A stretch of 47,172 bases of DNA from Acidobacteriota bacterium. Its GTDB lineage: Bacteria; Acidobacteriota; Terriglobia; Terriglobales; Acidobacteriaceae. The translations under genes were made by a program, and so were the position numbers. Shown here piece by piece: positions 5,440 through 21,507 of the stretch (positions are counted from its first letter, which is position 1; each line of letters starts with the position of its first letter). The stretch is from contig JAJZGF010000012.1 of NCBI GenBank assembly GCA_021805025.1, forward strand, positions 1 through 47,172, given 5' to 3'. The notes below the pieces were generated by a model. The model was not told the DNA's origin. It made no database searches and saw nothing but the letters and a program-made list of their open reading frames with translations.

Positions 5440-6000
5440 TTAGTTCGGCAGCAGAACCGAGTCAATCACGTGAATCACGCCGTTTGACTGATACACATCG
5501 GCGATGGTCACGGTCGCGGTCCCGCCTTTTTCGTCCGTCAGCACAACCTTGCCGTCCTGCAGAGACGCGGTGATCGTGCCGCCTTCCACGGTCTTCAGTG
5601 CAGCTTTGCCATGACCCTTTTTGATCAGCTTGATCAGATCATGGGAACTGACCTTGCCCGCCACAACATGATAGGTCAGCACTATCACAAGCTGGTTCTT
5701 GTTCTCGGGCTTCAGCAGCGTGTCAACCGTGCCCGCAGGCAGCTTGGCAAAGGCCTCATTAGTGGGCGCAAAGACAGTGAAGGGTCCGGGACTCTCCAGC
5801 GTCTCTACCAGTCCGGCGGCCTTTACGGCGGCAACCAGCGTGGTGTGATCCGGGGAGTTGACCGCGTTCTCCACGATGTTCTTTACCGGACACATGGCTG
5901 CGCCGCCCACATCCGGATCTTTCTGCGCATGGATCATTGCGGTTGGAAGTGTAAGCGACAGGGCCGCGACGGCGGCGAGAATGAACTGTTTGCGGTGCAT
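5440..6000 (-). CDS. Secreted fasciclin (beta-Ig-H3) domain protein
   Basis: A 186-residue exported protein. ATG 6000 was chosen because GGAGAAG lies about 10 nt upstream and the product then begins with a clean signal peptide (MHRKQF, hydrophobic run, IHAQ). A single fasciclin domain fills residues about 38-186. The first conserved block is FTVFAPTNEAFAKLP, the second contains YHVVAGKV, and the end is NGVIHVIDSVLLPN. Family members mediate adhesion or sit in extracellular matrices; in bacteria the partners are mostly unknown. It is divergent from the DUF2127 gene. Confidence 0.88.
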   Translation of the reverse strand: MHRKQFILAAVAALSLTLPTAMIHAQKDPDVGGAAMCPVKNIVENAVNSPDHTTLVAAVKAAGLVETLESPGPFTVFAPTNEAFAKLPAGTVDTLLKPENKNQLVIVLTYHVVAGKVSSHDLIKLIKKGHGKAALKTVEGGTITASLQDGKVVLTDEKGGTATVTIADVYQSNGVIHVIDSVLLPN

Positions 6001-6204
6001 AGGCGTTGTCTTCTCCGGTGGCAATTTTTGTTCCTATGACGTAACGCGCCGCAGGCGCACTTGGATTCGAGCAACCCGGCGGAGATATGACCCGATGCAC
6101 AATGTGTATGCAATTTGTGGATACCGGCGAAGCGGACGTGCTTTTGAGAGAAGCAGGCATCATCATGTAACGTATCGGTAGCGGAACCCTTTCACTGGCT
6201 GGAC

Positions 6205-6720
6205 GTGGATATCATCGATTCTCGACGCAACACCCGCGTGTTACCCAGAAAGCACAATCGCCTGCTCGTGCTGATCGCGGCCTACAAGGTTGTGCAGGCT
6301 TTGCTGTTCGCATCTGTCGGGGTGGGCGCCCTGCGTCTCCTGCACAAGGACGCGGGCGATGTGTTGGCGCAGGTGACCACGGATCTCCGCTTCAATCCCG
6401 AGTCGCGCTTTGTGAACTTCATCCTGGACGAAGCCGCGCTGCTCAACGACCCTCTACTCCGACGCATCGGCCTGGTTGCCTTCTGCTATGCGGGCGTCAG
6501 CCTGGTCGAGGGAATTGGTCTCTATCTTGAGCAGGCATGGGCCGAATACCTCACATTGGTCATCACGGCCTCGTTCCTGCCCTGGGAAGTCTTTGAAGTC
6601 TTCCGCAGGCTGACCTGGGTGCGAGTCGGGCTGCTCATCGTGAACGCACTGGTCTTGATCTACCTGCTCATGCTGGTTTCCACGCGCAAGAAGCAGCAGG
6701 AGAGCAACAATGAGGGATAG
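6205..6720 (+). CDS. DUF2127 membrane protein
   Basis: A 171-residue integral membrane protein starting with GTG 6205; no strong ribosome binding site is seen. After a short basic N-terminus there are about four hydrophobic segments (around residues 20-42, 85-107, 111-130 and 137-157), then a Lys/Gln/Glu tail. The segment EGIGLYLEQAWAEYL followed by PWEVFEV matches the conserved EGxGLxxxxxWAEYL / P-E pattern that I recall for the DUF2127 family. The function is unknown. It stands alone upstream of the dcw promoter. Confidence 0.75.
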   Translation: MDIIDSRRNTRVLPRKHNRLLVLIAAYKVVQALLFASVGVGALRLLHKDAGDVLAQVTTDLRFNPESRFVNFILDEAALLNDPLLRRIGLVAFCYAGVSLVEGIGLYLEQAWAEYLTLVITASFLPWEVFEVFRRLTWVRVGLLIVNALVLIYLLMLVSTRKKQQESNNEG

Positions 6721-6914
6721 TTTCGCCTTTTGTTTTCCTTTAACGCGTTCTGCGTCCCTTGCCTAGCCCTGAGTCACCCGCCTGAACCTTACAAGTAAAC
6801 ACAATAGGTTGTGCTTGATTGATTTGAAGAGCCTATTAGGCAGGTCGATCGGGGTCGATTGACTCAATCGACTTTAGATACACAGGCCCGTTCCGCTTTC
6901 AATCACTTTTGGTA
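6721..6914. other. Non-coding spacer before the dcw promoter
   Basis: No gene is seen. The stretch is lower in GC than its surroundings and contains GATCGGGGTCGATTG-like partial repeats (near 6844), but no convincing hairpin terminator. Confidence 0.4.
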
Positions 6915-6943
6915 TTGGAGGGAGCAACAAGGTGGGCTATTAT
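6915..6943 (+). promoter_or_regulatory. Sigma70-type promoter of the dcw cluster
   Basis: TTGGAG (6915-6920) and TATTAT (6938-6943) are separated by 17 nt, an ideal housekeeping spacing. The expected start near 6950 places the MraZ boxes at the start of the transcript, leaving a leader of about 170 nt before mraZ. Confidence 0.6.
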
Positions 6944-6950
6944 CGTGTCT

Positions 6951-6990
6951 GAAGTGGAGTAAAAGGGAGTAAAAGGGAGTCGAAGGGTAA
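6951..6990 (+). promoter_or_regulatory. Four MraZ-box-like 10-bp direct repeats
   Basis: Four consecutive 10-bp units read GAAGTGGAGT, AAAAGGGAGT, AAAAGGGAGT and CGAAGGGTAA. The core GGGAGT or GTGGAGT recurs exactly every 10 bp, i.e. on one helix face. MraZ is known to bind GTGG/TGGG-type repeats with this spacing just ahead of its own gene, so this is the likely autoregulatory operator. Its place just past the -10 element suggests repression. Confidence 0.8.
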
Positions 6991-7118
6991 GTTCTAAGGC
7001 AAGATTACCTGATTTTCTCCCTACGAGCTTAGAGTTTGCGGTCGAAAGGCTTCTCGAACCATCCTGAACAACCCCGGTTGGGCAGGGGAGATAAGACGGG
7101 CACACGAGGGTCGGGGCT

Positions 7119-7568
7119 ATGTTTCGCGGAAACCATCTGGCGAAGGTTGATGAAAAAGGGCGGTTGAAGCTGCCCTCTGCCTTCAAGCAACTGGTGGATG
7201 CTGCCCATGTGACGCAGTTTTACGTGACCAGTACGGACGGCAAGAGCGCCGAGATTTGGCCGCTCCCCGAATGGGAAAAGCGGGAAGAGCAGTTGGCGGA
7301 CGCCAGCACGATGGATGACGCCGTGAAGAAGTACCTGAACATGACCAGCTACTACGGTCAGCAGGTGGAGATGGACAACCAGGCCCGGCTCCTGTTGCCG
7401 CAGATTTTGCGCAGTTCGGCCGCGCTGGATGCCGAAGTGACGGTTTTTGGCATGAGGACTTACCTGGAAGTGCATAACCGGGAGATCTTCGAGCGGAATC
7501 TGCAGGAGAACGAATTGACGGTCGAGGATCGCAAGGCAATGGCGGCCATCCTGAGCCGTCGCGGTTGA
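7119..7568 (+). CDS. mraZ: Transcriptional regulator MraZ
   Basis: A 149-residue DNA-binding protein, the usual first gene of a dcw cluster. It carries two SpoVT/AbrB-type half domains. The first begins MFRGNHLAKVDEKGRLKLPS (the conserved DxKGRLxLP) and the second contains DNQARLLLPQILR at about residues 85-100. It assembles into a ring that contacts several 10-bp repeats; four such repeats lie at 6951-6990, so it probably controls its own operon. The ATG at 7119 is preceded by a weak GAGGGTCGGGG. The rsmH start lies 25 nt after its stop. Confidence 0.95.
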   Translation: MFRGNHLAKVDEKGRLKLPSAFKQLVDAAHVTQFYVTSTDGKSAEIWPLPEWEKREEQLADASTMDDAVKKYLNMTSYYGQQVEMDNQARLLLPQILRSSAALDAEVTVFGMRTYLEVHNREIFERNLQENELTVEDRKAMAAILSRRG

Positions 7569-7593
7569 GGTGAAATCCCCCCAGGGGGAGCGC

Positions 7594-8505
7594 ATGACGA
7601 ATCGACGCGAACGCCATGTGCCCGTTCTTTTTGAAGAAGCGATTGAGTTTCTCCAAGTGCGCGCCGGTGGCGTTTACGCGGATTGCACCCTGGGGCTGGC
7701 CGGACACGCTGCGGAAGTGGCGCGGCGGATTGGACCGGAGGGTCGGTTGATTGGTTTTGACCGCGATCCGGAAGCCCTGGAGTTGGCCAGGATAAAGCTG
7801 GCCGCAGTTTGCAATGAGCTGGGCAGCCAGGCGCCACGGATCGAGCTGGTGGGCGAGGATTTTGGGTCGATTGCGCGGCACTTTGCGCCGGCCTCGCTGG
7901 ATGGGATTCTGGCCGACTTCGGAGTGAGCAGCCTGCAACTGGATGAGGCGCGCAGAGGATTCAGTTTTATGGCGGATGGACCGCTGGATATGCGCATGGA
8001 TACGCGCACCGGGCCCACCGCCGCACAAGTGGTGAATGAGGCGAGCGAGCGTGAGCTGGCAGACCTCATTTACGAATACGGAGAGGAAAGGAGGTCGCGG
8101 AGAATCGCCAGAGCCATTGTTCGCGGGCGGCCGGTGACAACGACAGGGCAGCTTGCCCGGATTGTTGCATCCGCCGCCCCGGCAATGAAACAGGACAGAA
8201 TTCATCCGGCGACGCGTACCTTCCAGGCGCTCCGGATTTGTGTAAATCGTGAGTTGGACGAGATTCGGACGTTGATGGAAGCCGCACCTGAATTGTTGAA
8301 GCCCTCCGGGCGGCTGGTCGTCATCAGTTTTCACTCATTGGAAGATCGCATTGTGAAGGACAGTTTGCGCGAGGGCGCACGGCAGGGAATCTGGGAACTT
8401 TTGACGAAGAAGCCGGCAACGGCCAGTGAAGAAGAGATGGAGCGCAACCCGCGGTCGCGGAGCGCCAAGATGAGAGCGGCAGAGAAGACCGGGGCCAGCG
8501 GATAG
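7594..8505 (+). CDS. rsmH: 16S rRNA (cytosine(1402)-N(4))-methyltransferase
   Basis: Methylates N4 of C1402 in 16S rRNA using S-adenosylmethionine. The ATG at 7594 gives 303 residues and has AGGGGGAG just upstream; the product then opens MTNRRERHVPVLFEE, the conserved HVPVL start. The SAM-binding motif is present as YADCTLGLAGHA (usually DxTxGxGGH) with FDRDP following. DGILADFGVSSLQLD, RGFSF and TRTFQALRICVNRELDEI match the family, and VVISFHSLEDRIVK lies near the C-terminus. It sits second in the cluster, as is typical, followed by ftsL after 39 nt. Confidence 0.95.
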   Translation: MTNRRERHVPVLFEEAIEFLQVRAGGVYADCTLGLAGHAAEVARRIGPEGRLIGFDRDPEALELARIKLAAVCNELGSQAPRIELVGEDFGSIARHFAPASLDGILADFGVSSLQLDEARRGFSFMADGPLDMRMDTRTGPTAAQVVNEASERELADLIYEYGEERRSRRIARAIVRGRPVTTTGQLARIVASAAPAMKQDRIHPATRTFQALRICVNRELDEIRTLMEAAPELLKPSGRLVVISFHSLEDRIVKDSLREGARQGIWELLTKKPATASEEEMERNPRSRSAKMRAAEKTGASG

Positions 8506-8544
8506 AAACTGGAGACGGGTTTCGCGAACGCAAGGAGATGTACC

Positions 8545-9051
8545 ATGGCGGCATGCACAACCACATTCAATGAGACAGTCAGCGGCTGGCCGGCGCGCGT
8601 AACCGAGCGCAATGCGGCCCTGCTGGCGCAGCAGCCATTACGCCGCAGGGGTGTCCGCACGCCCGAGGTCATGCTGAACAGGCACTTTGACAACTCACGG
8701 CTGGTGAAGGCGCCGGACCCGGTGCGGCTGCGCCAGATGCGCATCTTTTCGGCCGCGCTTTTTGTGCTGTTTTCGCTCGTAATGGTGTACGGATTGCAGC
8801 ACTTCACTGCGATTGAAGGTTCGTATCGCCTGGAGTCGGAAAAGCAGTTGCGGGATCAGTTGCGCGAAGAGAACCGCCAGTTGCGGTTGACCGAGGCGCA
8901 ACTCTCCCAGCCGGCGCGTATCGACGGGCTGGCGCACGAGATGGGCATGGCCGCACCTCAGCCGGGCCAGGTGGTACATGAAGAGATGCACCCCGATCTG
9001 ACCGCTCCCGTGCTGGCGCAGGTCACTCCCCCGCCATCGCCCGCGCGCTAA
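8545..9051 (+). CDS. ftsL: Cell division protein FtsL-like
   Basis: A 168-residue bitopic membrane protein starting 8 nt after AAGGAG. About 65 cytoplasmic residues precede one transmembrane segment (IFSAALFVLFSLVMVYGL, about residues 69-88). A short periplasmic coiled coil follows (SEKQLRDQLREENRQLRLTEAQL), then a Pro-rich tail. Position between rsmH and ftsI plus this topology identify FtsL, which forms the FtsQLB complex that activates FtsW-FtsI. Sequence conservation in FtsL is low, so the call rests mainly on topology and context. The cytoplasmic domain is longer than in E. coli. Confidence 0.8.
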   Translation: MAACTTTFNETVSGWPARVTERNAALLAQQPLRRRGVRTPEVMLNRHFDNSRLVKAPDPVRLRQMRIFSAALFVLFSLVMVYGLQHFTAIEGSYRLESEKQLRDQLREENRQLRLTEAQLSQPARIDGLAHEMGMAAPQPGQVVHEEMHPDLTAPVLAQVTPPPSPAR

Positions 9052-9087
9052 ACTGGCAAATGACGACCCTTCCCTGAGCCATTCGTG

Positions 9088-11370
9088 ATGCAGGCAGCCT
9101 TTCGAGCCAACCGGAATCGCAACACAGTCCCGCGCGCCATGCCGATGAAGCTGGCGCGCTTCTGGCTTATCTGCGCGTTTTTCCTTGTCTGGGCCGTCTT
9201 CATCACCGCGCGCCTGCTTTGGCTCCAGGGCGTGCGCCACGCAGAGTACGCGGAGCGCGCGCAGAAGCAGCAGCAGCGCACCTTTGAGGTGGCTCCGCAT
9301 CGCGGAGTGCTCTATGACCGCAACATGCGCGAGCTGGCCATGACCGTTGAGGTCGACTCCATCTATGCCGTACCCTCGGAGATGGACGACAAGCCGGCCG
9401 CTGCGCACGTGCTTGCCGCGGCCACGCACATCGACCCTGAAGATCCCTTCACAACCGAAGAGGAAATTGCCGGGCGGCTGGATGCGGGACGTAACTTCGC
9501 CTGGGTGGCGCGCCGCGTCAAACCGGAGGTGGCCGCGCGCGTGAAAGCCATAAACATGAAGGGCATCTATTTTCAGAAGGAGTTTCAGCGCTTTTATCCC
9601 AACAGCGTGATTGCCGCGCAGGTTCTGGGGTATGTAGGTTTGGATGACAACGGCCTTGGCGGACTGGAGCAGAAGTTCGATGCGCGCCTGCACGGCGTGC
9701 CGGGGCAGGTATTTACGGCGATGGATGCGCGGCGTCGCATCGTGGGCTCCACTGCACGAGAGCCTGAGCCTGGCCAGAACCTTCAACTCACCATCGACGA
9801 AAACATCCAGTTTATGGCTGAGAAAGCTCTCGACCATGCCTTGGAGAAGACCCACGCCGACAATGGAACGATCGTCGTGCAGGATGTGCACACCGGCCAG
9901 ATTCTCGCCCTCGCCATTCGCCCCACCTTCGATCCCAACGATTTTCGCCACACTACGCCCGCCCTGTTGAAAGACCACGCAGTCAGTGATGTCTATGAAC
10001 CCGGCTCGGTCTTCAAGCTCGTTACTTATTCAGCCGCGCTCGACTCCAACCTTGCCAAACCCGACGACATGATCGATTGCCAAGGCGGCAAAATCACTCT
10101 CGCCGGCCGCGTGATTCACGACAATCAAGGAGAACACTACGGAGTGATTCCACTCCATCAGGCGCTGGAGGTCTCCAGTGACGTTGCCGCCGTCAAACTC
10201 GCGCTCAAGGTCGGCCCTGATCGCTTCTACCACTACATCCGAGACTTCGGCTTCGGCAGCCGCACCGGCATGGAAGTTCCCGGCGAAACGCGCGGCTTGC
10301 TTCGCCCCCCGAGTAAATGGAACGGCTCCTCCATCGGCTCCATCGCCATTGGTCAGGAAGTCGGCGTCACTCCCGTCCAGCTTGTCTCCATGGTCTCGAC
10401 CATCGCCAACGGCGGAGTTTATCTCACGCCTCGCATCCTGATGCCGAATCAGCTGGACCCCAATCAGAAGTCCGCTGCCTTGCAGCCGGCAGCCTTTAAG
10501 CCCGGCGAAGACCTGCCCAATCCACTGCCTCCCGGCGCGCACCGTGTCATCTCCGAGATGGCCGCCGCACAAATGCGGAAGATGATGGAGGGCGTGGTGC
10601 TTTACGGAAGCGGCAAGCCCGCGCAGCTCAACGGCTACTCCTCCGGAGGCAAGACCGGGACCGCGCAGAAGGTTGACCCTGTCACGCACCTTTACTCGAA
10701 GACGATGCACATCGCATCCTTTGCCGGTATCGCGCCCGTGAACAATCCCGCCATCGCCGTGGCCGTCATCATCGATAACCCGAAGAGCGGCCCTTCCTAC
10801 TACGGCACCGCCGTCTCTGCGCCGGTGTTTGCAGAGTTGGCGCAGCAGGTTCTGGAGTACCTGGGTGTAGCGCACGACATTGATGTGCGATCACCTGACG
10901 AGCAGCCAAAGGCAGACGCAGTCACTTCAGAAGACGACAGCGGCACAGACCAGAACACCGTGGATGCCCTCTACGCTGCTGCCAATGATCTGCCCGCCGA
11001 TGATCCACTGCGCGCGTCGCCAGGCTCTGCGAGCGCGCCCGGCGCCACATCGGCTGGGCAGTCGGCCCGCGCCAAGCCCGATGCGAAGGCCGCTGACAGT
11101 GCGCCGCCCGCGCCGGTCCTGGCATCTCAGCCGGTGGCGCCAAACGCCGTCGATCCGCAGAAGGCGATCGCCCTCATCCAGGCCAGCGACGCAAAGAAGT
11201 TGACGGTGCCGTCCCTTGTGGGGCTGCCGGTACGCAAGGTGATTGAAGCTGCTGCCGCGGCGGGCCTGGATGTCAAGGTGCTCGGCACAGGCACAGCGCG
11301 CCAGCAGGCGCCCTCAGCCGGAACCCAGGTCTCATCGGGAACCAAGATCGTCGTTCATTGCGGGCGTTGA
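9088..11370 (+). CDS. ftsI: Septal penicillin-binding protein FtsI (PBP3) with PASTA domain
   Basis: Peptidoglycan DD-transpeptidase of the divisome, 760 residues. GTG 9085 or ATG 9088 could be the start. One transmembrane anchor lies at about residues 21-43, followed by the dimerisation segment beginning PHRGVLYDRN. The transpeptidase domain carries the acylated serine in SVFK (S307), the second motif SSD (S363-D365, where SxN is usual) and KTGTAQ (K522). After a Pro/Ala/Ser-rich linker a PASTA domain starts KLTVPSLVGLPVRKVIEAA and runs to the end, ending IVVHCGR. PASTA repeats on FtsI are more typical of Gram-positives but occur in some Gram-negative phyla. It partners FtsW (17870) and is coupled to murE, 54 nt downstream. 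Confidence 0.94.
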   Translation: MQAAFRANRNRNTVPRAMPMKLARFWLICAFFLVWAVFITARLLWLQGVRHAEYAERAQKQQQRTFEVAPHRGVLYDRNMRELAMTVEVDSIYAVPSEMDDKPAAAHVLAAATHIDPEDPFTTEEEIAGRLDAGRNFAWVARRVKPEVAARVKAINMKGIYFQKEFQRFYPNSVIAAQVLGYVGLDDNGLGGLEQKFDARLHGVPGQVFTAMDARRRIVGSTAREPEPGQNLQLTIDENIQFMAEKALDHALEKTHADNGTIVVQDVHTGQILALAIRPTFDPNDFRHTTPALLKDHAVSDVYEPGSVFKLVTYSAALDSNLAKPDDMIDCQGGKITLAGRVIHDNQGEHYGVIPLHQALEVSSDVAAVKLALKVGPDRFYHYIRDFGFGSRTGMEVPGETRGLLRPPSKWNGSSIGSIAIGQEVGVTPVQLVSMVSTIANGGVYLTPRILMPNQLDPNQKSAALQPAAFKPGEDLPNPLPPGAHRVISEMAAAQMRKMMEGVVLYGSGKPAQLNGYSSGGKTGTAQKVDPVTHLYSKTMHIASFAGIAPVNNPAIAVAVIIDNPKSGPSYYGTAVSAPVFAELAQQVLEYLGVAHDIDVRSPDEQPKADAVTSEDDSGTDQNTVDALYAAANDLPADDPLRASPGSASAPGATSAGQSARAKPDAKAADSAPPAPVLASQPVAPNAVDPQKAIALIQASDAKKLTVPSLVGLPVRKVIEAAAAAGLDVKVLGTGTARQQAPSAGTQVSSGTKIVVHCGR

Positions 11371-11424
11371 CTTCCTGCGCGGCCGTCCTGCACCCTCGCC
11401 CCGCCATCTACAATCGAGCACAAG

Positions 11425-12936
11425 ATGACGTGGAAAGAACTGATAGCGGAAATCTCCTTCGACGGTGCTGCGGGCGACTCCGAGCAAGCGGTCACCGGCA
11501 TCGAGTACGACTCGCGCCGCGTGCGTGCCGGCGCGGTGTTTGTGGCCATGAAGGGCGGCTCGACCGACGGCAATCGTTATGTGGAAAAGGCCATTGCCGC
11601 TGGCGCGCTCGGAATCATTACGGACTCAGCGCAGGTACTCGATCATCTGGTGGTGTACCGACCCGAAGTGTGTGTGTTGCAAGTGGAGCACGGACGGCGC
11701 GCACTGGCAGAGGCGTCGTCGGCCTTCTTTGGCCATCCGGAGCGTAGGCTTGCAGCGACGGGGATTACCGGTACAAATGGCAAGACCACGACGGCATTCC
11801 TGACCGAGGGGCTGCTGCATGAGGCTGCAAGAAAGACGGTGCTGGTGGGCACAATTGAGTATCATGTCGCCGGTGAGGTACGCCCGTCCGTGCACACCAC
11901 GCCGGAGTCGCGCGACCTGTTCGAACTCATGGCCGAGGGCGTGGCGCGGGGAGCAACCGAGTTGGTGACGGAGGTATCGAGTCACGCGCTCGATCAGGGC
12001 CGCGCGGCGGGAATCAACTTTGATGTAGCCATATTTACGAACTTGACCCGCGATCATCTTGACTATCACCAGACGATGGAAAAATATTTCGCAGCCAAGA
12101 GCCTGCTGTTTGACGGTACTGCGTATCCTGCGCCCCGCGTGGCCGTGCTGAATGCGCATGACCCGCGCAGCGAAGCGTTGGCCGAGGCCGCGCGCAAGGC
12201 CGGCGCAGAGGTGCGCATGTACGGCATTGGCCGGGGAGAATGGCGCGCGGAGAGTTTCGCGCTTACGCCGGGCGGCGCGGATCTGCATCTTGCAACCCCT
12301 GTGGGCGCGGCGCGGGTAACTTCGCGGCTCGCCGGCGAGGTGAACATTCTGAACCTTCTTGCGGCTTTCACGGCCGCTCATGCGCGTGGCGTGGAGTTTA
12401 GCGTGCTTGTCGCTGCGATTCCGCTCCTTTGGCCGGTGCCGGGCCGCTTTCAACCGGTGGATGCAGGACAGCCCTTCAATGTGATTGTGGATTATGCGCA
12501 TACGGATGATGCGTTGCGTAATCTGACAGCGCTGGCCCGGCAGATGGCGGCGCCCGCTGGCAGCCGCGTCATCACTGTCTTCGGCTGCGGAGGCGACCGC
12601 GACCGCACCAAGCGCCCCAAGATGGGCAAGGCCGCCGGAGAGGGAAGCGATCTTGTAGTCGCAACCAGCGACAACCCGCGTTCGGAAGATCCGCTGGCGA
12701 TTCTTGCGGAGATCGAGCCGGGGTTGAAAGCGACACGGGTTCGCTATCAGATTGAACCGGATCGCGCACAGGCAATCCGCACGGCGCTGGGCGCCGCTCA
12801 GCCGCACGATGTAGTGCTGATTGCGGGCAAAGGTCACGAACAGGAGCAGATCCTTGCGGATCGCACGGTCCCGTTCGACGACGTAGAGACCGCTCTTTTC
12901 ATCTTGCGGCAAATGGGATACGGTGGAGTGCGATGA
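11425..12936 (+). CDS. murE: UDP-MurNAc-tripeptide synthetase (meso-diaminopimelate type)
   Basis: Adds the third amino acid to UDP-MurNAc-L-Ala-D-Glu at the expense of ATP; cytosolic. The 503-residue protein has the Mur ligase layout: an N-terminal UDP-binding domain with YDSRRVRAGAVFVAMKG, the ATP loop GTNGKTTT (K120), VSSHALDQGR, NLTRDHLDYH, and a C-terminal domain with DYAHTDDAL. The amino-acid selection motif is DNPR (D416-R419), which specifies meso-diaminopimelate and not lysine. The stop overlaps the murF start (ATGA), so the two are translationally coupled. Confidence 0.95.
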   Translation: MTWKELIAEISFDGAAGDSEQAVTGIEYDSRRVRAGAVFVAMKGGSTDGNRYVEKAIAAGALGIITDSAQVLDHLVVYRPEVCVLQVEHGRRALAEASSAFFGHPERRLAATGITGTNGKTTTAFLTEGLLHEAARKTVLVGTIEYHVAGEVRPSVHTTPESRDLFELMAEGVARGATELVTEVSSHALDQGRAAGINFDVAIFTNLTRDHLDYHQTMEKYFAAKSLLFDGTAYPAPRVAVLNAHDPRSEALAEAARKAGAEVRMYGIGRGEWRAESFALTPGGADLHLATPVGAARVTSRLAGEVNILNLLAAFTAAHARGVEFSVLVAAIPLLWPVPGRFQPVDAGQPFNVIVDYAHTDDALRNLTALARQMAAPAGSRVITVFGCGGDRDRTKRPKMGKAAGEGSDLVVATSDNPRSEDPLAILAEIEPGLKATRVRYQIEPDRAQAIRTALGAAQPHDVVLIAGKGHEQEQILADRTVPFDDVETALFILRQMGYGGVR

Positions 12937-14342
12937 AACTCACCCTAGCCGAAGCGGCGGTAGGCGCGGGCGCGGTGCTGGAGGCGCCGGCCAGCGTGTC
13001 GCAGCCCGGCTCATGCATCGTAACGGGTTACTCCATCGACTCGCGTACCATTGCGCCGGGCGAGCTGTTCTTTGCCGTGCGCGGCGAGCGCCTGGATGGC
13101 CACGACTTTTTGGCCGGCGCCGTAGAGCGCGGCGCGGTCGGCGCGGTGGTGTCGCGCGCGCGCGTGGCCACGTTGCCCGATGCGGTGTTAGCCGTGCCGC
13201 TGCTGATTGCGGAAGATCCTTTGCTGGCGTTGCAGGGGCTGGCAGCGCATGTCCGCCGGCAGTGGGGCAAGCGCGTGGTGGGAGTCACGGGATCTGCGGG
13301 CAAGACCACCACCAAAGAGGCTATCGCTCTCGCCTTGGGCGCCAGGTTCAACGTGCTTAAGTCGCAGGGAAACCTGAACAACGGTTTTGGCCTGCCCTTG
13401 CAGCTGCTGCGGCTGGAACCGGAGCATGAGTATGCCGTGATTGAAATGGGCATGAACCACGCGGGCGAGATTGCGGCCCTGGCGCGGATAGCGGCGCCGG
13501 ACTGGGGCGTGGTAACCAATGTGGGCACAGCGCATATTGAAAATTTTCCAGATGAACAGGCGGGCATTGCACGGGCCAAGTTTGAACTGGTGGCCGCCTT
13601 GCCTGCCAGCGGCGTGGCCTTTCTGAACTGTTGCGATCCGTACGTGTCGCAGTTTGGCCGGGACTTTCCGGGGCGCGTGGTGTACTTCGGCGATGGACCC
13701 TGCGCGGACCCGCGGATTCTGACGGCGAAGGAAGACGAATCTGGCCTGCACGTGTGTTATCGCGTGGATGAGCGCGAGGGTTGGCTGACGCTGCACATGC
13801 TGGGCGCGCACAACGGCGCAAATGCCATGGCCGGCCTGGCGGTGGCGCTGGAGGCCGGCGTCGAACTGGATGCCGCGATCCGTGCGCTTGAAACCCTGAC
13901 GGCTGGCGACAAGCGCGGCGAGGTCATCGAGATCGGCGGAGCTACTCTGCTGAACGACAGCTACAACTCCAATCCTGAAGCGCTTCGTTCGATGATTCGC
14001 ACGCTCGCATCACGCAAGGCGCAGCGCCGCATCCTGATCGCGGGCGAGATGCTCGAGTTGGGCGAGCACGGACCCGCGCTTCACACTGCATGCGGCAAGG
14101 CTGCAGCAGAGGCTGGTCTGGATTTTGTGGTGGGCGTGCGCGGGAATGCAGAACATCTGGCTGTCGCCGCCTGTGCCTCCGGAGTTGCATCGGTCTTCCT
14201 GCCCGATGCCGAGGCCGCGGGCCGCTGGCTCAGCCGGAATCTGCGTGAAGGCGACGTGGTACTGGTGAAGGGTTCACGCGGTGTGCGATTGGAGCGCGCG
14301 ATTCAGATCGTGTTGACCGCGGCGGAAAGCGTGACCGAGTAA
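12933..14342 (+). CDS. murF: UDP-MurNAc-tripeptide-D-Ala-D-Ala ligase
   Basis: Adds D-Ala-D-Ala to the UDP-MurNAc tripeptide to complete the pentapeptide; cytosolic. The 469-residue protein shows YSIDSRTIAPGELFFAVRG in the N-terminal domain, the ATP loop GSAGKTTTKE (K124), GNLNNGFGLPL, EMGMNHAGEI and NVGTAHIENF in the central domain, and LLNDSYNSNPEA in the C-terminal domain. Its ATG overlaps the murE stop. The next gene, a B3 beta-lactamase, begins two bases after its stop. Confidence 0.95.
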   Translation: MKLTLAEAAVGAGAVLEAPASVSQPGSCIVTGYSIDSRTIAPGELFFAVRGERLDGHDFLAGAVERGAVGAVVSRARVATLPDAVLAVPLLIAEDPLLALQGLAAHVRRQWGKRVVGVTGSAGKTTTKEAIALALGARFNVLKSQGNLNNGFGLPLQLLRLEPEHEYAVIEMGMNHAGEIAALARIAAPDWGVVTNVGTAHIENFPDEQAGIARAKFELVAALPASGVAFLNCCDPYVSQFGRDFPGRVVYFGDGPCADPRILTAKEDESGLHVCYRVDEREGWLTLHMLGAHNGANAMAGLAVALEAGVELDAAIRALETLTAGDKRGEVIEIGGATLLNDSYNSNPEALRSMIRTLASRKAQRRILIAGEMLELGEHGPALHTACGKAAAEAGLDFVVGVRGNAEHLAVAACASGVASVFLPDAEAAGRWLSRNLREGDVVLVKGSRGVRLERAIQIVLTAAESVTE

Positions 14343-14344
14343 CC

Positions 14345-15217
14345 ATGCGCTATACCGTGCGCTGCCATCTTCTGCCGCTCGCCCTCTTCGCCCTGGCAAT
14401 GGGTCTCCGTGCGCAGGTTTCCGCTGCATGGACGAAGCCTTTCCCCGCATTTCATATCGCAGGCAATCTCTACTATGTGGGCAGCGAAGATCTGGCGTCT
14501 TACCTGATCGTGACTCCCAGGGGAGACATCCTCATCAACAGCAGCCTTGAGTCGTCTGTGCCATTGATCAGAAAGAGCGTTGAGTCCCTCGGCTTTCGAT
14601 TCAGTGACATCAAGATTCTGCTGATCAGTCATGCGCATTACGATCATTGCGCCGGCAGTGCGGCGATCAAGCGGCTGACGGGCGCGCAGTATTTTGTCAT
14701 GGATGCGGACGTTTCCGTGGTGGAGTCCGGAGGATCGGCCGACTTTCAGTATGCCGCGGACAAGTCTATGCACTTTCCGTCGGCGCATGTGGATCGCGTT
14801 CTGCATGACGGCGATACCGTCAGCCTTGGCGGCGCTGTGCTGACGGCGCACCGGACGCCCGGCCACACCAAGGGGACGACGACCTGGACGATGGACGAAA
14901 CCGAGGGCGGAAAGACGATGCACGTCGTGATCGTCGGCAGTCCCAACGTTAATCCCGGATACAAGCTGGTGGGAAACAATCGATACCCGCAGATCGCATC
15001 GGACTATGAACGCGGATTCAAAGTGCTGGCAGGCCTGCAGTGTGACATCTTTCTGGGCGCGCATGGCGGATATTTTGGCCTCAGTGAAAAGTACGCTCGC
15101 TTGCGGCAAGGTGATCGCAGCGCGTTTGTAGATCCGGCCGGCTACCGGAACTACATCACGGAACGCAAGCAGGCGTTCCAGGCGGAGTTGCATCGCCAGA
15201 TACAGGCCAGGCTGTAG
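14345..15217 (+). CDS. Subclass B3 metallo-beta-lactamase
   Basis: A secreted zinc hydrolase, predicted to open beta-lactam rings in the periplasm. It is 290 residues with a signal peptide (MRYTVRCHLLPLALFAL, then LRAQVSA). The fold marker HAHYDH supplies H96, H98, D100 and H101; the third Zn1 ligand is H174 in GHTKGTTTW and the last Zn2 histidine is H240 in GAHGG. This HxHxDH...H...H set without the B1 cysteine is the B3 pattern, and PFPAFHIAGNLYYVGS near the mature N-terminus also fits B3. All ligands are present, so it should be active, although activity on particular drugs cannot be read from sequence. It starts 2 nt after the murF stop with no room for its own promoter and so should be co-expressed with cell wall synthesis. 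A role in wall recycling is possible instead of or besides resistance. Confidence 0.88.
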   Translation: MRYTVRCHLLPLALFALAMGLRAQVSAAWTKPFPAFHIAGNLYYVGSEDLASYLIVTPRGDILINSSLESSVPLIRKSVESLGFRFSDIKILLISHAHYDHCAGSAAIKRLTGAQYFVMDADVSVVESGGSADFQYAADKSMHFPSAHVDRVLHDGDTVSLGGAVLTAHRTPGHTKGTTTWTMDETEGGKTMHVVIVGSPNVNPGYKLVGNNRYPQIASDYERGFKVLAGLQCDIFLGAHGGYFGLSEKYARLRQGDRSAFVDPAGYRNYITERKQAFQAELHRQIQARL

Positions 15218-15298
15218 TCTGTGCGTCCACAGGCTTCGCAGTCCCCGGCCTTGTAGAATCAACCTGAAGATTTGCCTCAGTCCGGCTCGGGAGGCCCA

Positions 15299-16435
15299 TT
15301 GCTTTATTGGCTGCTCTATCAAAAGCTGTATCCGTTCTTTCACCCGTTCCGCATCTTTCGGTATCTGACCTTTCGCACCGCTTTTGCCTCGCTGACTGCG
15401 CTTCTGATAGCTCTGTTCATCGGGCCGTATGTGATTGAGAAGCTGCGCGAGTTCCAGATCGGCCAGTACATCCGCGAGGAGGGTCCGCAGTCGCACCAGA
15501 AAAAATCGGGCACGCCGACAATGGGTGGGGTGCTTATCGTGATTGCGATTTTGCTGCCGACTGTGTTGTGGTCAGACCCCGTCAATCCTTTTGTTTGGGT
15601 TGCGGTGTTCTCTACGCTGGCCTTCGGCGCTGTCGGATTTGCGGACGACTACATCAAGGTGGTGCAGCGCCGCAGCCTGGGATTGACAGCGCGCGCGAAG
15701 CTGTTCTGGCAGGTGCTTGCTGCTGCGATGGTTGCCGTGGCGCTGGTCGTGCTGACGCAGTTCAAGGTTTTTTCTACAGCTCTCATGGTGCCGTTTATCA
15801 AGAGCTGGCGACCGGACTTGCAATGGCACTGGGCTGCAACTCTGCCTCATCTTGGCTGGCTGGGGTTCTTGCCTTTTGTCGCTTTTGTGGTCTTTGTGCT
15901 GATGGGCTCCACCAATGCAGTCAACCTTACCGATGGCCTGGACGGCCTCGCAATTGGCTGCACCATCATTGCCGCTGCGGCTCTCGCCGTGCTGACTTAT
16001 GTGAGCGGCCACGTCGTCTTTGCCGACTATCTTGAGCTGCAGCGCATGCCCATGGTGGGCGAACTGACGGTTTTCTGCGGCGCCATGGTCGGGGCTTCCA
16101 TCGGCTTTCTTTGGTACAACGCGCACCCGGCAGAAATCTTCATGGGCGATGTAGGCTCTCTCGCGCTGGGCGGCGCCATCGGGACCGTGGCCGTCATCAT
16201 TCGCCAGGAGTTGCTGCTCCCGTTCATCGGCGGCATCTTCATTCTGGAAGCCCTTTCCGTGGTGCTGCAGGTGGGCAGCTACAAGCTGCGCAACAAAAAG
16301 CGTATCTTCAAGATGGCGCCTCTGCACCACCACTTTGAGCAGCTTGGGTGGCACGAGTCTAAGGTCATTGTTCGCTTCTGGATTGGCGCCCTGGTGTTTG
16401 CACTGTTTGCTCTCACCACACTCAAACTTCGGTAG
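15299..16435 (+). CDS. mraY: Phospho-MurNAc-pentapeptide transferase
   Basis: Integral membrane enzyme that transfers phospho-MurNAc-pentapeptide to undecaprenyl phosphate, forming lipid I. TTG at 15299 is the likely start: GGGAGG ends 4 nt upstream, and the product then begins [13 protein letters not shown], matching the usual MLYWL start (378 residues). An in-frame TTG at 15272 is less likely. About ten hydrophobic helices are seen. Catalytic segments are GFADDYIKV (DD pair), [12 protein letters not shown], the [14 protein letters not shown] segment and the His-rich MAPLHHHFE near the C-terminus. It lies 81 nt after the beta-lactamase. Confidence 0.95.
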
Positions 16436-16502
16436 CCCGCAGCGCCTGGGCGGTCCGGCGTTGCACAATAGAAAAGTTGAAAGGGCCTGAGGAAGAACCG
16501 AA

Positions 16503-17885
16503 ATGATGGAGCTCAAGGGCAAAAAGGTTCTGGTCGTCGGACTGGGGAAATCCGGACTGGCAGCCGCTCTGTTCCTGCGCCGTCGCGGCGCCCAGGTCAC
16601 GGTCTCCGATGTGCGAAGCGCCGAGGCGCTGGCCAGGGATATCCCTGCGCTGCTCGAAGAGGGCATCATGGTCGAGACAGGCGGGCACGGGCTGCTGACC
16701 TTCCGCCGTCAGGATCTGATTGTCGTAAGCCCAGGCGTACCGCTGGACACCCCCGAGCTGGTCCAGGTGAGAAACTTTGGCCTGCCGGTGATTGGGGAAC
16801 TCGAACTTGCCGCACGCTTTTTGAAGGGCCGGCTGATGGCTATTACGGGCTCGAACGGCAAAACGACCACCACCGCCCTGCTGGGCGAGATTCTGGAAGC
16901 CGCCGGTTTGCCGACGCTGGTAGGAGGCAATATTGGCGTACCAGTCGTGTCGCTGATCGACGAGAGCACAGAGAACAGTTGGTCGGTACTCGAGGTGTCG
17001 AGCTTTCAGCTTGAAACGACTGACCAGTTCCATCCGAACATCGCCGTGATCCTGAACATTACGCCGGACCATCTGGATCGCCACGGCACCTTTGAAAATT
17101 ACGCCCTCGCGAAGGAGCGGATTTTTGCGGCGCAAACCGCGGCGGACTCTCTGGTGCTGAATGCCGAGAACGTGCGGGCATCTGCTGCGGCCGCGCGCTC
17201 GGCAGCGCCCGTCTACTGGTTTTCGCTGGAGCGCAGAGTGCCGCAGGGCGCATGGGTCGAGGATGGCTTTGTGGTCTTCCGTGCCGCCAAGGGGATGGCA
17301 GAGGAGCGGGTGATCTCGTTGAACAACATTCCTCTGAAGGGCGAGCACAACGTGGAGAACGTCCTGGCCGCGGTCTGCGCCGCCCGCCTGGCCGGCGCCT
17401 CTGCTGAATCGATTTGCCTGGCCGTTGAGAAATTCAAGGCGGTGGAGCATCGGCTGGAATATGTGGCGACCTTGAATGGCGTGGAGTTTTACAACGACTC
17501 CAAGGCGACCAATGTGGACGCCACGGCAAAGGCCATCGCTGCATTTCCGGCGGGGATTCATCTGATTCTGGGCGGCAAGGACAAGAACTCCGACTACACT
17601 CAACTTTCGCAGTTGCTGCGGGAACGCGTGCGCGCCGTGTATACCATCGGATCGGCAGCGGCAAAGATTGAGTCGCACCTGCGCGGCGTGGTGCCGCTGC
17701 ATTCCTGCGAGACACTGCAAAAGGCCGTTCAAGCCGCCGCTTCCGCCGCGCATCCCGGCGAAGTTGTACTCCTGGCTCCGGCCTGCTCCAGCTTTGATCA
17801 GTTCGAGAGCTATGAGCATCGCGGCCGCGTCTTCAAGGAGATTGTGAATGAAGGTCGGGGCTGGAAGGTATGGCAAAACGCGTAG
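16503..17885 (+). CDS. murD: UDP-MurNAc-L-Ala-D-Glu ligase
   Basis: Adds D-glutamate to UDP-MurNAc-L-alanine in an ATP-dependent step. The 460-residue protein starts at ATG 16503 (a second ATG follows at once) behind GAGGAAG. The N-terminal Rossmann-like domain has VLVVGLGKSGLAAALFL, the ATP loop is GSNGKTTTT (K120), then EVSSFQLET, NITPDHLDRH and FYNDSKATNVDAT, and the C-terminal domain has LGGKDKNSDY and LLAPACSSFDQFESYEHRG. Its end overlaps the ftsW start by 16 nt. Confidence 0.95.
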   Translation: MMELKGKKVLVVGLGKSGLAAALFLRRRGAQVTVSDVRSAEALARDIPALLEEGIMVETGGHGLLTFRRQDLIVVSPGVPLDTPELVQVRNFGLPVIGELELAARFLKGRLMAITGSNGKTTTTALLGEILEAAGLPTLVGGNIGVPVVSLIDESTENSWSVLEVSSFQLETTDQFHPNIAVILNITPDHLDRHGTFENYALAKERIFAAQTAADSLVLNAENVRASAAAARSAAPVYWFSLERRVPQGAWVEDGFVVFRAAKGMAEERVISLNNIPLKGEHNVENVLAAVCAARLAGASAESICLAVEKFKAVEHRLEYVATLNGVEFYNDSKATNVDATAKAIAAFPAGIHLILGGKDKNSDYTQLSQLLRERVRAVYTIGSAAAKIESHLRGVVPLHSCETLQKAVQAAASAAHPGEVVLLAPACSSFDQFESYEHRGRVFKEIVNEGRGWKVWQNA

Positions 17886-18964
17886 GCGTTGACAAGTGGA
17901 TCTTCTTCACCACGCTTCTGCTCGTGGTGTTCGGCCTGGCCATGGTGTTTTCAGCCTCCGCCGTCGTGGCCCAGGAGCAGTTTCATAACCCTTACGCCAT
18001 CGTCGGCAAACAGGTGGGCTGGGCGCTGGGCGGCGTCCTCTGCATGGTCTGGCTGATGACCGTCGACTACAGCCGCTACAAATCTCCGCGCATTATCTAT
18101 GCAGCCACAGCCATCACAACGATTCTGCTGGTGATGGTCTTCTTTTTCCGCAACTCGCACAACACGCACCGCTGGATTCGCTTCGGTGGCCTGTTCACGT
18201 TTCAGCCCTCAGAGATCGCCAAGCCGGTGCTCATCCTGTTTCTCGCCTGGTTTCTGCACACGCGCCTTGACGCCGTGCGCGATTGGAAGAATACGTTGCT
18301 GCGCGCGGCCATTATCCCATGCGTATTTGTGCTGCTTGTTCTCAAGCAGCCCGATCTCGGCACCGCGCTCGTGCTGGCCGGCGTCACCGCCATGATGATG
18401 CTTTTGGCAGGCATGGAGTGGAAGTACTTTTTCGCTGCGCTGGCTGCCACTCTTCCCGTGCTGGCGTTCCTTCTGTTCTGGGTCTCGTGGCGAAGGCAGC
18501 GTATGCTGGTCTTTCTCCACCCGGATTCAGATCCGATGGGCGCGGGCTTTCACATCAATCAATCCCTGATCGCCGTGGGCACAGGGGGCTGGCTGGGCCG
18601 CGGCTATATGGAAGGCATGCAGAAACTCTTCTATCTGCCCGAGGCCTCCACGGACTTTATCTTTGCCAACATCGCCGAGGAGTTGGGCTTTCTGGGAGCG
18701 ATATTCCTCGTGCTGCTCTTCCTCGTACTTGGCTTTCGCGGCTTGCGAACCGCCTACAAGGTGCAGGATCCCTTTGGCCGCCTGATCGCTTTCGGCATTA
18801 CGACCGCCATCCTTCTGCAGGCATTTTTCAACATCAGCGTGGTGCTTTCCCTGCTGCCCACCAAGGGGATTCCACTGCCCCTGATCTCCTCCGGCGGCAC
18901 ATCCATCTTCTGCACGCTGGCGAGCATCGGTATCCTGCTTAACATATCCAGGAAGGTGGATTGA
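17870..18964 (+). CDS. ftsW: Septal peptidoglycan glycosyltransferase FtsW
   Basis: SEDS-family polytopic membrane protein of 364 residues that polymerises lipid II at the septum together with FtsI. ATG 17870 follows GGAAGGT inside the end of murD. About ten transmembrane helices alternate with polar loops. Family marks include RWIRFGGLFTFQPSEIAKP, KQPDLGTAL (the conserved aspartate region), GAGFHINQSLIAVGTGGWLGRG, LPEASTDFIFANIAEELGF and GIPLPLISSGGTS near the C-terminus. Its cluster partners here are murD upstream and murG downstream. Confidence 0.95.
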   Translation: MAKRVGVDKWIFFTTLLLVVFGLAMVFSASAVVAQEQFHNPYAIVGKQVGWALGGVLCMVWLMTVDYSRYKSPRIIYAATAITTILLVMVFFFRNSHNTHRWIRFGGLFTFQPSEIAKPVLILFLAWFLHTRLDAVRDWKNTLLRAAIIPCVFVLLVLKQPDLGTALVLAGVTAMMMLLAGMEWKYFFAALAATLPVLAFLLFWVSWRRQRMLVFLHPDSDPMGAGFHINQSLIAVGTGGWLGRGYMEGMQKLFYLPEASTDFIFANIAEELGFLGAIFLVLLFLVLGFRGLRTAYKVQDPFGRLIAFGITTAILLQAFFNISVVLSLLPTKGIPLPLISSGGTSIFCTLASIGILLNISRKVD

Positions 18965-18970
18965 TGCGGC

Positions 18971-18991
18971 CGCCCGCGCCGTATGCGGGCG
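18971..18991 (+). terminator. Hairpin after ftsW
   Basis: CGCCCGC (18971-18977) and GCGGGCG (18985-18991) form a perfect GC-only stem with a 7-nt loop, 6 nt after the ftsW stop. No T-tract follows. TTGACT at 19002-19007 could be a -35 element for murG, but only a poor -10 (ATTCTT, 19025) is present. The hairpin may attenuate read-through into murG. Confidence 0.4.
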
Positions 18992-19101
18992 TTGGCCCAG
19001 GTTGACTTTGTTACGATGAGGCGCATTCTTCCAGAACGACCTGCAGCGCGGATGCAGCCGTCAGGCCGCCTGCGAGCGGCACGCGATCGAAAGGTTTATC
19101 C

Positions 19102-20178
19102 TTGCCCAACCTGCGCGTATTGATAGCCGGAGGCGGCACCGGCGGGCACATCATTCCGGCGCTCGCCGTGGCCCGCGAACTCGTCGCCCGCCACAGCGCC
19201 GATGTGCTTTTTATAGGAACCGCCCGCGGCATGGAGAGCCGTCTCGTACCCGAGGCCGGTTTCCTGCTACGCCTGGTCCAGGTCGGCCCCCTTAATCGTG
19301 TCTCGCTCGTCACGCGTCTGCACACCCTGCTCGACCTGCCGCGCAGCGTGATCGCCTGCCGCAGGATCATGCGCGAATTCGAGCCTGATGTTGTCCTTGG
19401 AGTGGGCGGTTACGCTTCGGGCCCCGCGATGGCTGCTGCGCTGCAGCTCAAGGTGCCAACCATGGCCTTTGAGCCCAACGCGATGCCGGGACTGGCGAAC
19501 CGGCTAGTGGGAAAGCGCGTGCAGGCTGCGGCTGTGAATTTTCCCGCTGCCACCAGGTGGTTTCGCAATGCGGAGGTGACGGGCATTCCCGTCCGCCCGG
19601 AGTTTATTCAACTGGCTCCGCCTCCCGCCGCGCCGCCCCATCTACTCATCTTTGGCGGCTCGCAGGGAGCGCGCCTGCTGAACCGGATGTTGCCGCAGAT
19701 TGTGTGTGCGCTGCTGCAAGCCGTACCCGGCCTGACGCTGTTGCACCAGTGTGGCGCGCGGCACACCGAAACAACCCTGGCAGCCTTTGCCGCAAGCGGA
19801 GCTGATCCGGCACGGTGGCAAGTCGCGCCGTTCCTTGACGACATGCCGGCGCGCTTTGCCAGGGCCAACCTGGTGGTGGCCCGTAGCGGCGCCTCCACCG
19901 TGGCGGAGTTGGCCGCAGCCGGCAAGCCTGCCCTGTTGGTGCCGTTTGCCGCGGCAGCCGATGACCATCAAAAGCGAAACGCCGAGGCGATGGTGCAGGC
20001 CGGCGCCGCGGTGATGATTTGCGAGGACGAACTGGTCCGCCCCGACCGCCTCCTCAACGAGCTCGTTCCGCTGCTTGCTTCTCCAAAGCGACTTGCAGCG
20101 ATGAGTCAAGCAGCCCGGACGCAGGCGCATCCCGGTGCGGCGGAGCGCATTGCCGACCGCCTGGCTGAGCTTGCGTGA
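19102..20178 (+). CDS. murG: UDP-GlcNAc:lipid I N-acetylglucosaminyltransferase
   Basis: Peripheral inner-membrane GT28 enzyme that converts lipid I to lipid II. The start is TTG 19102 (GAAAGG about 7 nt upstream), so the product begins MPNLRVLIAGGGTGGHIIPA with the glycine-rich loop in place; total 358 residues. Later segments are GVGGYASGP, EPNAMPGLANR, FGGSQGA, VVARSGASTVAELAAAGKPALLVPF (UDP-GlcNAc-binding region) and DDHQKRNAEAM. It is the last gene before the bidirectional terminator at 20254-20285, and two opposite-strand genes separate it from murC. Confidence 0.94.
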   Translation: MPNLRVLIAGGGTGGHIIPALAVARELVARHSADVLFIGTARGMESRLVPEAGFLLRLVQVGPLNRVSLVTRLHTLLDLPRSVIACRRIMREFEPDVVLGVGGYASGPAMAAALQLKVPTMAFEPNAMPGLANRLVGKRVQAAAVNFPAATRWFRNAEVTGIPVRPEFIQLAPPPAAPPHLLIFGGSQGARLLNRMLPQIVCALLQAVPGLTLLHQCGARHTETTLAAFAASGADPARWQVAPFLDDMPARFARANLVVARSGASTVAELAAAGKPALLVPFAAAADDHQKRNAEAMVQAGAAVMICEDELVRPDRLLNELVPLLASPKRLAAMSQAARTQAHPGAAERIADRLAELA

Positions 20179-20253
20179 TGCCTGCGCGGAATCGCATGCA
20201 GAGATGAGGGGCGATTGGCCTGTCCAGTCGCCTGCTATGCGAACGGTAAATCA

Positions 20254-20285
20254 AAAGGCCCGCCTGCCAGAGCAAGCGGGCCTTT
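20254..20285. terminator. Bidirectional intrinsic terminator
   Basis: AAAGGCCCGC (20254-20263) and GCGGGCCTTT (20276-20285) make a perfect 10-bp stem with a 12-nt loop. A-runs and T-runs at its base allow termination in both directions: murG from the left and the glycine-rich gene from the right. Confidence 0.8.
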
Positions 20286-20304
20286 CATATTTGTTCGTTG
20301 CGGA

Positions 20305-21189
20305 TTAACGGCGTCCGCCACCGCCGCCACCGTGGAAGCCACCGCCTCCGCCGCCACCGTGGAAGCCACCGCCGCCACCACCGCGGAATCCGCCACCACC
20401 GCCACCGCCATGGAAGCCACCGCCTCCACCGCCACCGCGGTAGCCGCCTCCGCCGAAGCTTCCACCACGGTAGCCACCGCCCTGGAAGCCACCGCCACGG
20501 TTGCCTCCTCCCTGGAAGTTCCCACCGCGGAAGCCATTGCCGCCGAAGCCCCCGGCGCGCCCACCAGCATAGGTGTTACGGACTCCGCCACCATTCAGGT
20601 TACGAGCCTGCATGCCATTGCCGCCACGGATTGGGCCGCCGGTGAAGCCGTTGCGCCCACCGAATCGGTTGTATCCGCCGTTGTTACCGGCCTGGTTGCC
20701 GAACCGGTTGTATCCGCCGTTGTTGCCGCCCTGGTTCCCGAAACGGTTGTACCCACCGCCGTTGCCCCAGCCTCCGCGCCCGCCGTAGCCGCCATAGCCG
20801 CCACGGTCGCCCCAGCCACCGCGACCCCAGCCTCCGCGTCCGCCCCAGTCATCGCCACCCCAGCCACCACCCCAACCCCAGCCGCCGCCCCAGCCCCAGC
20901 CGCCGCCCCAACCCCAGCCTGGGCCCATGCCCCAGCCCATCCACGGTCCGGCGCCGATGAAAGCACCGCCAAGAAACCAGTTGTCGCCGTAGTAGCCACT
21001 AGGGGCACAGCCATAGGGATAGTAAGGGTAGTAGCCCCAGCTGCAAACGGGCGGGCCGTCATCATCGGGTACTGCGACCACCGCAGGTCCGATTCCGATG
21101 CCGACACCGATGCCGATCTGCGCACTGGCCGTTACCGCAAAGGGCAATGCAAGCAGCATCCCACTCAGTACGAGCCGCAAGCTTTTCAT
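20305..21189 (-). CDS. Secreted glycine-rich repeat protein
   Basis: A 294-residue low-complexity exported protein. ATG 21189 is preceded by GAGGAAG and opens with a signal peptide (MKSLRLVLSGMLLALPFAVTASAQ). The mature protein has four parts: a short GIGVGIGIG segment, a Tyr/Pro/Cys stretch (CSWGYYPYYPYGC), Trp-Gly repeats (GWGWGGGWGWGGG), then Asn-Gly-Gly repeats containing three copies of NNGGYNRFG and a C-terminal run of Gly with FHGG and FRGG units. No family function is known to me. Such glycine-rich sequences suggest a surface or matrix role, or a disordered metal/peroxide-reactive coat. It faces against the dcw cluster, between murG and murC. Confidence 0.72.
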   Translation of the reverse strand: MKSLRLVLSGMLLALPFAVTASAQIGIGVGIGIGPAVVAVPDDDGPPVCSWGYYPYYPYGCAPSGYYGDNWFLGGAFIGAGPWMGWGMGPGWGWGGGWGWGGGWGWGGGWGGDDWGGRGGWGRGGWGDRGGYGGYGGRGGWGNGGGYNRFGNQGGNNGGYNRFGNQAGNNGGYNRFGGRNGFTGGPIRGGNGMQARNLNGGGVRNTYAGGRAGGFGGNGFRGGNFQGGGNRGGGFQGGGYRGGSFGGGGYRGGGGGGGFHGGGGGGGFRGGGGGGFHGGGGGGGFHGGGGGGRR

Positions 21190-21507
21190 GACTTCCTCCT
21201 CGTGCTGTCCTATCCCTGGCTTCTGGACGCGGAATACGGACCTGAACTTCAGTCTCAGCACCTGACGGTTCAGAACTCATTCTAGAACCGGCATCTGTAG
21301 CTTCAAACAGCAGAAACTTGCTTTAGTTGCGGTACTTTTGTGCAGACCCAATGCAGTTCCTGCCGGTTAACACCATTGTTTCACCCGTGTCACTTTGGGA
21401 GCATGCGTGCTGTTGTGCAGCCCCCTGATCGACCAGATCACTCAAAAAAAGCAGCTTAAGCGATTCCAGCTCCTTGCTTGCGCTGGTAGAACCCCTGCGC
21501 GCAGGGC
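21190..21507. other. Spacer between the two glycine-rich genes
   Basis: Probably holds the promoter of the gene ending at 20305 and the 3' end of the transcript from 21975. Directly after the latter's stop lies a 14-bp perfect palindrome (CCCTGCGCGCAGGG, 21493-21506). Further on, in the minus direction, an AGCT...AGCT stem is followed by seven Ts (21446-21452 on the complement), a weak intrinsic terminator candidate. Confidence 0.4.

Follow-up and report, generated by a model that had tools for sequence, protein, structure and literature searches.

The window analysed here, 47,172 nucleotides from an Acidobacteriota bacterium (contig JAJZGF010000012.1 of GenBank assembly GCA_021805025.1), contains a division and cell wall (dcw) gene cluster that houses a gene for a FEZ-like subclass B3 metallo-beta-lactamase. 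This gene, here named bla (14345..15217, + strand; ATG start, TAG stop, 290 aa), is preceded by rsmH, ftsL, a PASTA-bearing ftsI, murE and murF, and followed by mraY, murD, ftsW and murG, then by murC, ftsQ, ftsA and ftsZ. The stop codon of murF (12933..14342, +; TIGR01143, 378 bits against a cut-off of 288.6), a TAA at 14340-14342, lies 2 nt before the bla start. Downstream, the second half of the cluster opens with mraY (15299..16435, +; TIGR00445, 402 bits, cut-off 192), which by alignment most likely starts at a TTG that 77 of 77 loci share at the aligned position, so the gap between bla and mraY is 81 nt. Among 80 genomes of the genus, window included, bla stands behind murF in 52 of the 55 that have it. 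The genus label, Terracidiphilus/Occallatibacter, was taken from the names of homologues, some of which are named Terracidiphilus; NCBI now files Terracidiphilus as Occallatibacter, Acidobacteriaceae.

The bla reading frame is intact, with no internal stop in the open reading frame list or the translation. Residues 1 to about 27 (14345..14425, +) were judged by eye to be a likely Sec signal peptide, a region across which the structure model has low confidence; the predicted structure matches a B3-type metallo-beta-lactamase (MBL) fold. The zinc motif HAHYDH at residues 96-101 (14630..14647, +) aligns with HAHFDH of FEZ-1 from Legionella (Fluoribacter) gormanii. H174 (14864..14866, +) is present in 51 of 51 aligned sequences, and H240 (15062..15064, +) in all 49 that have a residue there. 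The initial annotation had described an intact B3 enzyme with six zinc ligands, and the alignment agrees: H96, H98 and H174 together with D100, H101 and H240 match the ligands of FEZ-1, which in standard B3 numbering are H116, H118, H196 and D120, H121, H263 (PMC5531557, partial text). Ser199 corresponds to Ser221 of FEZ-1 and is invariant in 41 homologues, a zinc-binding Cys at 221 being absent, and the substrate-site residues agree in the alignment with those of a known beta-lactamase. The partner Cys of the FEZ-1 disulfide Cys256-Cys290 (PMC5531557, partial text) is replaced by Tyr267. The protein passes the curated equivalog threshold of NCBIfam bla_subclass_B3 (331 bits, cut-off 240) and misses that of the NCBI FEZ family (363 bits, cut-off 600), and is therefore called FEZ-like rather than FEZ. 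It is the sole close B3 enzyme encoded in the source genome, the second of two matches having 36% identity over residues 88-180. Judged by its sequence, the protein is a subclass B3-type enzyme of an ordinary, known kind, predicted to be exported and to hydrolyse beta-lactams.

A few details of bla sequences may be recorded here. In one relative (L070, G357) the first zinc-ligand His is replaced by Gln (QGHFDH), like LRA-12, which carries Gln116 (PMC5531557, partial text). In another (L080, G371), a metagenome-type assembly, an in-frame stop within the zinc motif reflects a pseudogene or a sequencing error. In the window, a 397-codon antisense open frame (14303-15496, -) spans all of bla, probably as a by-product of G+C-rich codon use.

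Distribution of bla and its tie to murF

Within the genus, bla was found in 55, murF in 74 and mraY in 75 of the 80 genomes; bla is absent from 25 of them, and from 11 of the 42 with completeness of 90% or more and contamination of 5% or less. Apart from the window's genome, 73 have a murF match, and the locus was retrieved for all of them but G022, where a contig end cuts it; bla directly follows murF in 51 of these 72, making 52 with the window. Of these 52 loci (window included), 29 have mraY on the murF contig at a distance of at most 2.7 kb, 19 show no mraY although the sequence continues for 0.9 kb or more, and 4 stop inside bla or close to it; for one of the last (G358), another contig bears the end of bla and then mraY. 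A copy elsewhere is found in G381 and in G030 (in the latter, the 270-290 nt preceding bla contain no murF, and murF is not followed by bla), while the G370 copy could not be placed, leaving two of 55 copies elsewhere and one unassigned. The 21 bla-less murF loci are followed by mraY in 10 cases and by neither gene in 10, and one is cut by a contig end.

These counts bear out the placement of bla directly behind murF inside the dcw cluster, 2 nt after the stop in the window, as first annotated. The accompanying view of an unusual insertion into an essential operon holds for the housing, which is unusual; it does not hold as a single odd event, the arrangement being characteristic of the genus and repeatedly lost. 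That it might be an assembly artefact, or a recent mobile insertion confined to the source genome, could be entertained given that this genome is a 320-contig assembly; however, the same order recurs, beyond what chance would give, in separately assembled genomes, namely 51 further ones of the genus, two of them single-contig (G002 and G343), and G306, from another genus of the family, so the survey refutes this explanation and its chance is negligible.

Across the class, 143 of 299 sampled genomes have a FEZ-like match at E <= 1e-30. When class-wide positions of bla and mraY were compared by eye, the two genes lay at most 3 kb apart, among the matches listed, only in genomes of the genus and in G306; in G175 and G215 the listed matches are 37-43 kb apart. 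Nine readable homologues outside the genus (11 tried) occupy other contexts, two of which are alike. FEZ-like B3 genes of other Acidobacteriota, for example those of Granulicella mallensis (L049, 57% identity) and Acidobacterium sp. S8 (L050, 66%), belong to the same family and have, unlike bla of the window, no murF or mraY within the retrieved flanks. Two relatives within the class, G053 and G059 (loci L026, L027, L029 and L031), contain 7 and 5 B3-like/MBL-fold matches, respectively, at E <= 1e-10.

At the junction with murF, 36 of the 51 other loci of the genus have a candidate bla start in 4-nt overlap with the murF stop, and a further 11 have one at -1 to +11 nt from it; G343, G352, G014 and G378 fit this register poorly. 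These starts are candidates, some of them far upstream of the mature domain, and the 36 overlaps reflect common descent rather than 36 independent events. The overlap suggests translational coupling of bla to murF. In the window the start adjoins the stop, as in a co-expression unit. Moreover, where the cluster is broken after bla, as it is in 19 genomes, bla remains beside murF, and none is seen in the retrieved flank upstream of mraY (these flanks are in part short, down to about 0.5 kb). Because of the overlaps and this co-retention, co-expression of bla with murF is very probable, presumably from a shared message. No promoter-like site was found at 13900-14420 of the window, scans for promoters and terminators around the two ends of bla gave no match on the + strand, and an Rfam search of 6000-21500 returned no family. 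Genetic distances lead in the same direction: in the 43 genomes with all three genes, bla distances track those of murF (Mantel r 0.59; 0.54 without G383) more closely than those of mraY (r 0.19, p 0.054; 0.24, p 0.036 without G383). Two points weigh against so close a tie, namely the 2-nt gap of the window in place of the 4-nt overlap, and the weak agreement of murF and mraY distances with each other (Mantel r 0.34-0.36). The retention of bla beside murF in the broken clusters, together with the promoter-like box that mraY has of its own (see below), indicates that bla is tied to murF rather than to mraY.

The 19 broken clusters are loci L074, L079, L080, L083, L085, L086, L093, L095, L097, L106-L110, L128, L130-L132 and L013. 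In these genomes mraY-murD lies on another contig, and the new neighbours of murF-bla, identified by eye, are PlsY/GpsA or YggS/TrxB-like genes.

The border before mraY and the history of bla

Between bla and mraY, 46 nt before the mraY start, lies the sequence GTAGAATC (15253..15260, +), which fits a GTARAATC box and is probably the -10 region of mraY's own promoter. Of 77 loci, 67 have the box in the 150 nt preceding mraY, with 66 of the matches lying 40-47 nt before the start; the total over 1.30 Mb, both strands counted, is 73 matches. Of the 30 loci in which mraY was not seen together with murF, 27 have the box; three of the 30 (G367, G370 and G374) count as separate only provisionally, as they lack an intact murF neighbourhood. 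Five outgroup genomes (G219, G253, G268, G328 and G336) lack the box, as do G003, G007, G366, G370 and G383, of which G366 and G370 are one letter off. In bla-less murF-mraY loci the gap is 76-91 nt in 6 of 10, with the same leader where the box is present, and in six bla-bearing genomes (G033, G034, G250, G028, G005 and G002) the bla stop codon forms part of the box. A scan with the sigma-70 consensus found no promoter at the box, which speaks against its assignment. Since mraY has a conserved promoter-like box of its own, one operon seems to end and another to begin between murF and mraY, which would make bla the final gene of the upstream half. The proposed co-expression with lipid II synthesis can thus be kept for murF, but cannot simply be extended to the entire pathway, mraY included.

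On the murF+mraY tree, the deepest branches of the genus (G012, G343, G369, G008, G021 and G005) bear bla, as does G306 in the nearest outgroup. The simplest account is therefore that bla was placed behind murF before the genus radiated and was then lost repeatedly. By parsimony, bla presence needs 16 changes on the best tree, 8 of them forced by supported branches, when G030 (not behind murF) and G370 are scored as bearing bla and G381 (copy elsewhere) as lacking it; both this tree and the bla tree come from quick searches and have many open forks. Some features of the bla tree run counter to this account. It departs in detail from the murF+mraY tree; three sequences not behind murF (L049, L024 and G268) nest within the linked bla clade, and the divergent copy behind murF in G383 (52% identity) falls outside it. 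Hence either inheritance was not purely vertical or the tree is unsure, and the G383 copy may reflect either fast evolution or replacement in place. A recent loss is apparent in G010, whose flanks are 92-95% identical to those of G004 and which retains only 48 nt of the bla end (87.5%) amid other DNA. Remnants were sought in 21 bla-less junctions (22 prepared, G349 being empty), with a plausible scar only in G010; a match in G011 hits the end of the G250 bla, which runs into the shared mraY leader, and was not counted.

In 12 close pairs, the ratio of nonsynonymous to synonymous substitution rates (dN/dS; own Nei-Gojobori script) of bla is 0.08-0.20, with bla dS above 1.5, near saturation, in three of the pairs. 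The ratio is 0.03-0.14 for murF (10 pairs; bla exceeds murF in 8, matches it in 1 and falls below it in 1) and 0.02-0.09 for mraY (11 pairs). By this measure, bla is kept functional, yet under less constraint than its neighbours. Genomes with bla have a median size of 4.7 Mb (n=31) versus 3.9 Mb for those without (n=11; Mann-Whitney p 0.006), but a tree-based test of this association had only 2 pairs on supported branches (7 on all), too few to bear it out.

Possible roles and comparison with known systems

We consider it reasonably probable that bla encodes a beta-lactamase serving self-protection, old and inherited yet dispensable, that is expressed in lockstep with murF and has been lost many times. 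Its product would be an exported, periplasmic di-zinc FEZ-like B3 enzyme that destroys beta-lactams of soil competitors before they reach the penicillin-binding proteins, to the presumed benefit of the host. The gene would have settled behind murF in the genus ancestor, at the point where the two halves of the dcw cluster meet and the mraY promoter just downstream would render the insertion harmless to the second half. With the bla start coupled to the murF stop and no regulator involved, the enzyme would be made whenever murF is translated. As an unlikely extension, the enzyme might have become a bound partner of wall-precursor synthesis in this lineage, its dose set by murF translation, so that protection scales with wall growth with no sensor; it may then also clear a wall-related or self-made lactam in the course of wall upkeep.

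The same tie to murF could instead signify housekeeping in wall synthesis or recycling, with the enzyme acting on a wall-derived or self-made lactam or a related metabolite. The scarcity of copies elsewhere (two of 55 in the genus, plus the unassigned one), the retention of bla with murF after cluster breaks and the purifying selection on bla speak for such a role. However, bla is missing from 25 of the 80 genomes and 11 of the 42 good ones, and such dispensability argues against an essential wall role; in addition, G010 has recently lost the gene beside a near-identical relative, homologues elsewhere in the class sit in differing contexts, and the substrate-site residues are those of a known beta-lactamase. 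We regard wall upkeep as improbable. It is still a little less probable that bla is a neutral passenger, kept at a spot between murF and the mraY promoter that tolerates cargo because moving is rare, the coupling having no meaning of its own. Cargo of another kind is indeed seen: of the 10 murF-mraY loci that lack bla, 4 have other DNA in the gap, which then measures 264-1287 nt, and the cluster also holds a GH30 gene at a different site. The 4-nt register of candidate starts in 36 of 51 loci and the purifying selection on bla speak against a passenger. Self-protection thus remains our preferred explanation.

Beta-lactamases are mostly pictured as mobile or stand-alone chromosomal genes under their own control. 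A beta-lactamase apparently inherited behind murF since before the genus radiation, retained with murF at cluster breaks and yet dispensable, offers a tractable case for asking what role resistance enzymes have in soils where drugs are not used, and whether the amount made can be hard-wired to the synthesis of the wall. In this soil phylum, FEZ-like relatives are common. In the literature searched (titles and abstract openings of the entries listed, with subscription journals mostly outside), no murF-linked or dcw-embedded beta-lactamase was described, and no paper on Terracidiphilus and a lactamase was found. The enzyme type is already known; the novelty lies in the genomic housing of bla, that is, its clade-wide coupling to murF.

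FEZ-1, which has the same six zinc ligands, differs from the window enzyme in having gamma-proteobacterial kin of its own. Over the best 120 of 7,961 FEZ-1 matches, identity falls from 87% to 66% once FEZ-1 itself is set aside; those with an organism name, 13 including FEZ-1, are all gamma-proteobacterial, mostly Legionella. A recent transfer of FEZ-1 from Acidobacteriota, raised by its position at an open fork among acidobacterial sequences, is unsupported.

The gene order rsmH-ftsL-ftsI-murE-murF, then mraY-murD-ftsW-murG-murC-ftsQ-ftsA-ftsZ, is the usual dcw order, and the window shares it, differing by bla after murF and the GH30 gene after murC; the clusters of the 19 relatives differ in being broken after bla. 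The GH30 glycosidase gene (PF02055; 23678-25156, +) lies between murC and ftsQ; judged by eye, a homologue lies about 7-9 kb from mraY, sharing its contig and strand, in nine relatives. After ftsZ, a gene at 29721-31010 (+) encodes a stand-alone transpeptidase-domain protein of 429 aa, which resembles the catalytic part of PBP2-type proteins and, only weakly, class D beta-lactamases.
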